A DNA stretch of 64,000 nucleotides from Sphingobacterium faecium (GTDB lineage Bacteria > Bacteroidota > Bacteroidia > Sphingobacteriales > Sphingobacteriaceae), in assembly GCF_003054045.1 (NCBI RefSeq), contig NZ_QBKH01000002.1, positions 806,001-870,000 on the forward strand. The letters run 5' to 3'. This document shows, piece by piece, positions 21,572-24,492 of the stretch; the stretch's first letter is position 1, and every line of letters begins with the position of its first letter. Both the position numbers and the translations under genes were made by a program. The notes under the pieces were generated by a model. It was not told the origin of the DNA, searched no databases, and saw only the letters and a list, made by a program, of their open reading frames with translations.

Positions 21572-22246
21572 ATGCAAGAAATGGAATTTGTAACAACAGG
21601 AGACGGTTCAAAGACATTGTTCAATGAACAAATAGGGGAGTGTTATCACTCCAAACATGGTGCAGTTCAGGAAAGTAAACATGTTTTTATTCATACAGGG
21701 CTTGATTATTATATACAACAGCATCAGCTACATAAAGTTGCAATTTTAGAAGTCGGGTTTGGAACAGGTTTAAATTTCACACAAACGCTAGCTTACATTG
21801 CTGATAAACAGGTTGAGATAGATTATGTTGGAATAGAGGGATTTCCATTACCCCTAGATGTGATTCAAGAAATTGGTTATGATGCTTTTGTGTCAGAGGA
21901 AGATTGGAAAAATTATATCTCGCATTACAAGGACGCATTAACTGGAACCATGCAGGTCAACAAACAAGCGCAGTTACATATCAATCATACTTTATTGATG
22001 AATTTTAACTCCAATAAGATTTTTGATATCGTATACTTTGATGCATTTGCTGCGGTTCATCAACCCGAAATGTGGACAGATGAAGCATTAGCGCATGTTG
22101 CTAAATTTATAAAACCAGGAGGTGTATTTGTTACCTATGCGATCACTGGAAATCTTAAAAGAAGTATGAAGGCTTTAGGATTTACGATTGAAAAAGCTCC
22201 AGGTGCACCTGGGAAAAGAGAAATGCTGCGGGCAACAAAAATTTAA
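21572..22246 (+). CDS. mnmD: tRNA mnm5s2U34 biosynthesis methyltransferase MnmD
   Basis: A 224-aa S-adenosylmethionine-dependent methyltransferase. MnmD converts nm5s2U34 to mnm5s2U34 in tRNA anticodons, as the methyltransferase half of bacterial MnmC does in proteobacteria. The visible motifs are an opening TGDGSKTLFNEQIGECYHSKHGA, the SAM-binding ILEVGFGTGLNF near residue 57-68, FDAFAAVHQPEMWT near 155-168 and GGVFVTYAITGNLKRSM near 185-201. No FAD domain is present, so the oxidase half must be separate or missing. A longer frame opens with TTG at 21563, but this TTG overlaps the promoter element, so the ATG at 21572 is preferred; ATG at 21581 is also possible. Confidence 0.88.
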   Translation: MQEMEFVTTGDGSKTLFNEQIGECYHSKHGAVQESKHVFIHTGLDYYIQQHQLHKVAILEVGFGTGLNFTQTLAYIADKQVEIDYVGIEGFPLPLDVIQEIGYDAFVSEEDWKNYISHYKDALTGTMQVNKQAQLHINHTLLMNFNSNKIFDIVYFDAFAAVHQPEMWTDEALAHVAKFIKPGGVFVTYAITGNLKRSMKALGFTIEKAPGAPGKREMLRATKI

Positions 22247-22357: not shown

Positions 22358-22454
22358 ATAAGAAGAGTAGGGAATTAGAAGTGATTAAAATAGTTCGCGT
22401 GCTAATTTATGTATTCAAAATGCTGCAAGAACTTAAAAAAGTATGCAAAAGTTG

Positions 22455-22975
22455 GATCACTTCTTGGCTGGGAGCGATCCCTTCTTGAGAAGAAGGGATT
22501 ACATCTTCTTAAGAAGTAAGGCAATCTTTACAAGAAGTAACTCGTTCTTGAAAAGATTGTCCTCATTATTTGGCTTTATCGTCGATTCTTTAAAGGAAGG
22601 ACCTCTATGTTTAAAAGAACTGACCCCTTCTTTTACACATAGAGGTACTTCTTCTCTATATGCAATCCCTTCTTATTAATAAGCAGTCCCTTGTTTTTAA
22701 GTTATAATCGCTTGTTTTTAAGTTCTGATCGTTTGTTTTTGCTTATGATCGCTTTTTTTAGAATAATTGACCAAAACTTCTAAAGTTGATCCATGTTTTC
22801 TTCATAATCAGATTATCATTAAAGAAATATAGAGCGGTTTTGGTCGTATGCATGATTATTTTTAGAAAGAAGGTGTCACTTCTTTTAAAGATGTGATCCA
22901 ATCTTTAAAAGAAGGAACTACTTATTTGAAAGAAGGTGTCACAGAAAGCGAGTATTTAGAAAGGAATGTCTCGTA
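22455..22975. repeat. Array of degenerate repeats of about 21 bp, rich in inverted repeats (non-coding)
   Basis: This gene-free stretch is built from a degenerate unit of about 21 bp centred on CCCTTCTT-n-AAAGAAGG. Consecutive units such as CGCTTGTTTTTAAGTTCTGAT can be followed for most of 22455-22760, with further copies at 22866-22975. Several units form hairpins. A perfect 10-bp stem has arms at 22477-22486 and 22490-22499. A 19-bp stem with one G-U pair has arms at 22601-22619 and 22628-22646. GAAAGAAGGTGTCAC occurs exactly twice, at 22866-22880 and 22928-22942, a spacing of 62 bp or close to three units. Small reading frames across it show a 7-residue periodicity (such as SLKEGTT) but are interrupted by stops, so I do not call a protein. 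Units abut each other without unique spacers, so this is not a CRISPR array. Confidence 0.7.
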
Positions 22976-23103
22976 TTGTCGTTTAAAGGCATATTTTCTT
23001 TTAATAACCCACTTAAAAATTAAATATTCATAAATTTATAATATAATTGTTTCGCTAACTTTTTCAAATCATTACAGCTGTATTTCTAATAGTTTTCTAA
23101 TGA

Positions 23104-23166: not shown

Positions 23167-24492
23167 ATGAATAAAAAGCCGCTGTTTGCGTCATTATTAT
23201 TGACCATTGGTCTTACTGGAATCCATATAAGTAAGGCACAAACAAATGATTTTGGAAATCCCAAACTCACCCATTATTTAAATAAGGAGCATACTCGTTA
23301 TGTGAGCTTCAGTGGGTATGCAGAACTGTGGGCGCGTTACACTCAATTAAATCCAGGAAGCCTTGTTAATAATGAACCAGTAGGAAGTGTATCCGATTTA
23401 TCACTGCGCCGTATTCGTGCGAAGATGACGTATAAACCAACTGAAAACTTGTATTTCGTACTGCAAATGGGGCCTACAAATGTGAATGTGAACAGTAAAA
23501 ATAATACCTATATGGATCTACTTGATGCATATGCAGAGTATAGCTTTAGCCCTAAGCTTGCAGTAGGTGCTGGACGTTCTACTTGGAGAGGACTATCTCG
23601 TTTCACAACAGGACCTCAGGCAACTTTACTCTATGATCTTCCCCTATATGCGACATCAAACACAGGTATTACAGATATGACGGTGCGGGAGATGAGTGCC
23701 TATATTAAAGGTCAGCTGGGACGTCTTGATTACCGACTGGTAGTTGCTGATCCTTATACGGCAACAAATGCAGATCCGGAATTAAATGTCGCTAAATTTA
23801 GTAAAAATGAAGCCCGTAAAGATGTTTCAGGTTACTTTAGATATGCATTTTTTGACAAGGAGAATAATGAAACGCCATTTAATGCGGGTACCTATCTAGG
23901 GAAGAAAAGAGTATTAAGTGTAGGTGGGGGATTTGAATATATGCACGATGCATTATGGCATTTAGATGCTGATAAAGCAGTACAAAACGATGATATGAAA
24001 AGCGTAGCACTAGATATTTTCTATGACGCACCCCTCAATAAGGGTAAAGGAACTTCTATCAGTGCGTACGCTATGGCCATGCATAATGACTATGGACCTA
24101 ATTATGTCCGATTTTCGGGAACAAATAATCCAGCTACGGGAGTAGTGGCTGCCAGTGCAAGTTTAAATGGGGCTGGAAATGCTTTACCTACCGCAGGAAC
24201 GGGTAATACATTTTATGCTCAAATAGGAGGTACATTGCCCTATTTTAGCCGCAATAATCATAACCTGCAACTGCAGCCCGCAGTATCCATACAACTTGCC
24301 AACTACAATGCTTTAAAAGATAATAGTGCGATATACGATGCTGGAATATCGATGTTATTTCATGGAAATAGTAGCCGCTTGACCTTCGATGCTCAAAATA
24401 GACCAATTTATAGCATGAATGCAGCAAAAGAAAGTTTGGTGACAGATCATAAATGGGCCTTTATCCTTAAATATAGAATAGATTTTAATTAA
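23167..24492 (+). CDS. Porin-like outer-membrane protein
   Basis: A 441-aa predicted outer-membrane barrel with a clear signal peptide (MNKKPLFASLLLTIGLTGIH, cleaved near SKAQ at residue 25). After it, alternating hydrophobic/polar strands, SLRRIRAKMTYKPTENLYFVLQMG near 75-98 and a C-terminal WAFILKYRIDFN ending in an aromatic-containing strand are typical of the phosphate-selective porin O/P superfamily in Bacteroidota. The actual permeant is unknown. It is the first of three genes for exported proteins packed within about 2.3 kb, followed by a two-component system. No TonB plug is present. Confidence 0.78.
   Translation: MNKKPLFASLLLTIGLTGIHISKAQTNDFGNPKLTHYLNKEHTRYVSFSGYAELWARYTQLNPGSLVNNEPVGSVSDLSLRRIRAKMTYKPTENLYFVLQMGPTNVNVNSKNNTYMDLLDAYAEYSFSPKLAVGAGRSTWRGLSRFTTGPQATLLYDLPLYATSNTGITDMTVREMSAYIKGQLGRLDYRLVVADPYTATNADPELNVAKFSKNEARKDVSGYFRYAFFDKENNETPFNAGTYLGKKRVLSVGGGFEYMHDALWHLDADKAVQNDDMKSVALDIFYDAPLNKGKGTSISAYAMAMHNDYGPNYVRFSGTNNPATGVVAASASLNGAGNALPTAGTGNTFYAQIGGTLPYFSRNNHNLQLQPAVSIQLANYNALKDNSAIYDAGISMLFHGNSSRLTFDAQNRPIYSMNAAKESLVTDHKWAFILKYRIDFN

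Follow-up and report, generated by a model that had tools for sequence, protein, structure and literature searches.

Tandem 21-bp dyad repeats with shared ends form a dispersed family of non-coding elements in Sphingobacterium

The intergenic region between mnmD and a porin-like gene of Sphingobacterium faecium contains an array of 21-bp units that belongs to a genus-wide family of short non-coding elements. The family has seemingly gone undescribed so far, and a literature search on intergenic 21-bp arrays in Sphingobacterium or Bacteroidetes returned nothing relevant. Its members consist of a leader of fixed length and a tandem run of 20-30 dyad-symmetric 21-bp units, with inverted ends or caps; units come and go in blocks of 21 bp and are homogenised within species. 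We see an even chance that the array forms the body of an old, fixed, non-autonomous, non-coding, MITE-like dispersed element, and that this body is a minisatellite shaped by slippage in 21-bp steps and by template switching at hairpins. The history of the element would include a link to IS256 ends in some parts of the genus. Coordinates refer to the window, the whole 64,000-nucleotide stretch of DNA that was analysed.

The periodic array, designated A, covers 22444-22942 and sits in the non-coding gap between the end of mnmD (Methyltransf_30) at 22246 and the start of the porin-like gene at 23167 (Table 1). Its self-identity at lags of 21, 42 and 63 bp is 0.474, 0.438 and 0.408, with z scores of 9.8, 8.0 and 6.1 against dinucleotide shuffles. 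The maximum among 500 shuffles over lags 8-70 is 0.362, and the best lag-21 identity in the remaining window is 0.384. A sequence-only reading of the window had proposed a degenerate repeat of about 21 bp, and the array is real: it outlasts the comparison with shuffles, and copies are present in the same genome and in related species. Viterbi segmentation with an iterated profile places the units in two blocks, and the approximately 70 bp between them, near 22788-22859, depart from the unit pattern. The unit consensus, drawn from about 20 arrays, is GnnATnnC-TTnTT-nnn-AAnAA, a dyad with two symmetry centres (GnnATnnC-TTnTTnnnAAnAA). The core given in the sequence-only reading, CCCTTCTT-n-AAAGAAGG, is one local version of it but not the general form. 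The perfect 10-bp stem reported there is exact. The longer stem is present as well, though with 10 + 8 Watson-Crick pairs plus a T-C mismatch where 19 pairs, one of them G-U, had been reported. The 15-bp direct repeat does lie three units apart, at a spacing of 63 bp instead of 62.

Table 1. Features of the element around array A, in window coordinates
Feature	Position	Strand	Remarks
Whole element, left palindrome to right end	22391-23064		Gap between mnmD and porin-like gene
Left boundary palindrome TAGTTcGCGTGCTAATT	22391-22407	+	Family consensus TAGTTAGCRTGCTAATT
Leader, palindrome to array	22408-22443	+	Length conserved, sequence poorly so
First cap unit TGGATCACTTCTTGGCTGGGAGCGAT	22453-22478	+	Faces inward
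Main block of dyad-symmetric 21-bp units	22444-22788		Viterbi segmentation
Perfect 10-bp hairpin, loop GAG	22477-22499		Loop CTC (inverted) in sister genome G059
Two-unit hairpin, 18 Watson-Crick pairs and one mismatch	22601-22646		In G059 one arm lost as a 21-bp block
Second unit block	22859-22942		15-bp direct repeat at 22865 and 22928, 63 bp (three units) apart
Last cap unit	22928-22948	-	Reverse complement GTGACACCTTCTTT resembles an inverted cap
Right end AATTGTTTCGCTAACTTTTT	23045-23064	-	Inverted partner (AGTTAGCG) of the left boundary

The host genome (G000), which its named mnmD relatives assign to Sphingobacterium, and related genomes contain further arrays. Those of G000 include A, B (before rlmH, downstream of rny), C and D. 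The palindrome TAGTTAGCRTGCTAATT, which flanks A, B and D at a distance of about 60 bp, has two more good matches in G000. Each of these two loci adjoins an array of 21/42-bp period with a different unit; two arrays were thus predicted by the boundary motif alone and then found, and G000 therefore has at least six. About ten congeners have arrays of about 20-30 units (G059, G074, G058, G010, G014, G068, G046, G047 and G044), and many Sphingobacterium species have none. The genes flanking the arrays vary, as does their orientation, and several copies have the same location in sister species. None of about 230 sampled genomes from 24 other genera in the family contains the unit pattern, and elsewhere in the phylum there is one match, which is chance-like. 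An exact scan of genome contigs for the unit pattern gave 0 matches, either because the pattern was too strict or because the genomes' own records were left out. Searches of viruses and of plasmids and phages for the array found none. The genus was sampled with one genome per species, and several loci were found through the type-1 unit pattern, which biases the catalogue; the arrays of Sphingobacterium sp. B16(2022), those of G079/G080 and those predicted by the boundary motif are free of this bias. The earlier suggestion of a repeat family is borne out and exceeded, as the family is dispersed, genus-wide and has defined ends.

Some loci have further peculiarities. The 3' end of array C occurs twice in G059 (L158 1087-1185 and 17975-18073; counterpart in G000, L010 2653-2751). 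A 16.8-kb block with ABC-transporter-like and large outer-membrane-like genes separates the two ends, and the G000 array is continuous, suggesting an insertion or an array-mediated deletion. A gene for a weakly FN3-like protein (KVILDYS...DDEFNTLVGKV) adjoins arrays in G000, G058, G074 and G059 (L010 2930-3565, L087 2999-3631, L101 2288-2920). The array loci L089 and L090 of G010, on contigs C7 and C20, are apparently identical together with their neighbours, which reflects either a large duplication or an assembly artefact.

Copies at unlinked loci have their terminal inverted repeats in common, AGTTAGCG ends in the G000 clade and inverted caps in G068 and others. Thirteen copies in the clade of G000, G059 and G074 share the left palindrome, which is degraded in G059_B, a leader of 62-63 bp and a first unit AGTnGGATyACTTnTT. 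The palindrome lies 62-63 bp, or three unit lengths, ahead of the first unit in nearly all aligned copies. A stretch of 127 bp that includes the leader region of A aligns to array D at 72%. The inverted right end AATTGTTkCGCTAAC, or a close form, is found in seven copies of the same clade, and the right end of array A is the same in arrays B and F and in the G059 and G074 copies. Across the genus the outermost units at both array ends resemble GTGACTACTTTTTGGCTTTCGCTAG and point inward; caps inverted in this way occur in G068, G046 and G074 copies and in the G000 copies E and F. The left palindrome of array A, TTAGCRTGCTAA, also resembles the SlyA/MarR operator TTAGCAAGCTAA (PMC5797941), a likeness that is one of sequence alone.

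In several species an IS256-type end motif, TTACACACTTCGTGGGATACTGC, stands at one array edge and always faces the array (G044, three in G058, G010, two in G068 and, weakly, G074). In Persicobacter an annotated IS256 copy has this motif as its right end. In G044 (L160 3132-3755) a truncated IS256-family transposase (Transposase_mut, E 1e-40) lies beside the array and is followed by the motif. No IS256 end was found in the G000/G059 clade at any array, that of the window included. By-eye comparison of arrays A, B and F shows no obvious target-site duplication, and no complete mobile copy was found. At the rny locus the array is full in G058, there are only about 50 bp in G010, and G107 has no array, a difference between species.

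The architecture of the arrays outlasts their sequence. At the mnmD locus of Sphingobacterium sp. B16(2022) and G080 there is an array with the same period and an unrelated unit, and at the rny locus of G079 and G080 an array whose unit is also unrelated and whose periodicity and dyad signal are weaker. Column permutation shows significant dyad symmetry of the consensus unit in 24 of 25 arrays. The remaining one, in G044, has about 26 nearly homogeneous units, which leave the test little power. Between G000 and G059, array divergence is about that of the flanking intergenic DNA (0.191 vs 0.187 for A). Loops evolve more quickly than flanks (0.258 vs 0.139), and changes in the core are less frequent than those in loops (P 2e-10). 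The core TT/AA positions are slow (0.086), and the A/T runs of the flanks nearly as slow (0.114; P 0.12, or 0.055 when restricted to three arrays). Indels between sister species are blocks of 20 and 21 bp, and array D has homogenised, species-specific units. Neighbouring units are more complementary to each other than permuted ones are (Stouffer 4.2; scores pooled over arrays count orthologous copies as independent). One array-C hairpin, with a 19-bp stem, differs between sister species by three fully compensated pairs. Template switching creates such patterns of compensated changes and inversions (PMC8794818, PMC8604942). An excess of loop inversions, considered as proof of template switching, was not seen (1/49).

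Two suggestions of the sequence-only reading concerned the product of the array. A multi-hairpin transcript, that is, a structured non-coding RNA, is consistent with folding of both strands, which is far better than that of shuffles (z -5.7 and -6.6), with the better folding of native than of permuted unit order (Stouffer -6.0, a figure that orthologous arrays make somewhat generous) and with the compensated array-C stem. It is nevertheless unlikely. No covariation is seen for the variable positions 11/19, 2/7 and 4/5 of the unit, and of 512 single changes that separate sister species in predicted stems, 348 break the pair. The array-C hairpin is the one exception to a general lack of the covarying conserved stems of a structured RNA family. 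The strong scores on both strands arise largely from the dyad consensus, and the strands are similar in stability, as a dyad predicts. No Rfam family matches the window, and the adjoining genes lie in all orientations. Sigma-70-like promoters are not in excess over shuffles in the arrays, although promoters of Bacteroidetes differ. The other suggestion, a decayed repetitive protein gene, appeals to the equality of 21 bp and seven codons, which would correspond to a heptad-repeat protein, and an array of another type in G058 is open for 99 codons (L088 3146-3445). Such an origin is scarcely credible for array A: across 20 arrays, none of the frames is clearly poorer in stops than column-shuffled units, and coding by the main unit type was rejected on these grounds. 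The G058 array (L088 3020-3390, core GATTAATC) is the second 21-bp array at its locus. It lies next to the first, is missing at the orthologous position of G010 and, in contrast to arrays of the main type, might be translated (MINQVSQTIDQ...). CRISPR was also rejected, as the units are contiguous, degenerate and dyad-symmetric and are not near-identical repeats with unique spacers.

The main rival is an array of functional DNA sites, since the sequence turns over but register, leader length, array size and core recur. Spaced exactly two helical turns (21 bp) apart, about 25 operator-like dyads would present a single face to a dimeric DNA-binding or nucleoid protein that binds them, for example in chromosome organisation, titration or local regulation. 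We regard this as possible, if improbable. A dyad in the consensus, with variable positions that do not covary, is as expected for symmetric protein sites, and the strict register, the leader of three unit lengths, the narrow range of 20-30 units and the scarcity of core changes relative to loop changes all agree with it. So do the recurrence of the core in distant congeners and the persistence of period and dyad at the same loci despite sequence change. Against it, the unit sequence of near relatives is wholly different at the same locus, many congeners have no array, flanking genes and orientation vary, and no candidate binding protein was identified. Intrinsic curvature would not be the reason for the arrangement, since the AA/TT clusters, judged from the consensus, are out of helical phase. 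It is rather unlikely that function maintains the architecture (about 25 dyads of 21 bp in helical register, with a fixed leader and inverted caps) and leaves the unit sequence free to turn over. Such arrays might, for example, serve as a scaffold of the chromosome or in its segregation, be read by a protein that co-evolves with them, and represent a bacterial counterpart of satellite DNA. A neutral minisatellite of purely local origin, which was never mobile and whose look-alikes arose independently, would account for unrelated units at the same locus and for young, highly homogeneous arrays such as that of G044. It is already weakened, and very unlikely, given that boundary palindrome, leader length, caps and IS256 ends are common to different loci.

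The MITE-like element with a minisatellite body remains the reading that we favour. The element would once have been mobilised, perhaps by an IS256-type transposase, and its copies would since have been inherited mostly in place. The body would evolve in steps of 21 bp, through slippage or unequal exchange, and template switching at hairpins would turn neighbouring units into each other's reverse complements. Many hairpins, broken periodic peptides and rapid change of units under a lasting period and dyad would then result from turnover, and not from a protein or a conserved RNA. Several observations sit poorly with this reading. Neither a target-site duplication nor a complete mobile copy was seen, loop inversions are not in excess, and no IS256 end was found at the G000/G059-clade arrays. 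Plain drift does not explain the slow TT/AA core and its recurrence in distant congeners, although the A/T runs of the flanks are nearly as slow. If the reading is true, a whole genus has an unannotated family of repeat elements whose period and symmetry outlive their sequence, and the arrays offer a natural test bed for mutational maintenance by slippage and template switching against selection on DNA architecture. It would likewise follow that an array of this kind can have high RNA-folding scores and compensatory pairs and yet not give rise to a functional RNA.

The arrays share features with several known systems. As in REP, BIME and REPIN elements, which are mobilised by RAYT transposases, intergenic short palindromic units are arranged with inverted partners; the units here are not single but confined to a few arrays of 20-30 in a fixed 21-bp register, with an IS256 end at one edge in several species. 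Scattered REP/BIME elements were rejected, as the best matches to the unit (those with 1 mismatch, and the majority of those with 2) cluster at the arrays and there are only 55 genome-wide at 3 mismatches. Iteron and centromere arrays, such as sopC of the F plasmid, are similar in that tandem repeats with dyads, close to multiples of the helical repeat, extend over about 500 bp, but the Sphingobacterium arrays are chromosomal, number several per genome, are not conserved in sequence and have no partner gene in view. MITEs and other non-autonomous IS derivatives are likewise short, non-coding and dispersed, with inverted ends and adjacent IS ends; the present element differs in its tandem-array body and in having only one IS end per locus, and no target-site duplication was seen in it by eye. 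With bacterial minisatellites (VNTR) the arrays have in common tandem units, block-wise gain and loss and homogenisation, and they differ from them in a dyad unit, common ends at unlinked loci and a period that stays constant while the sequence changes.
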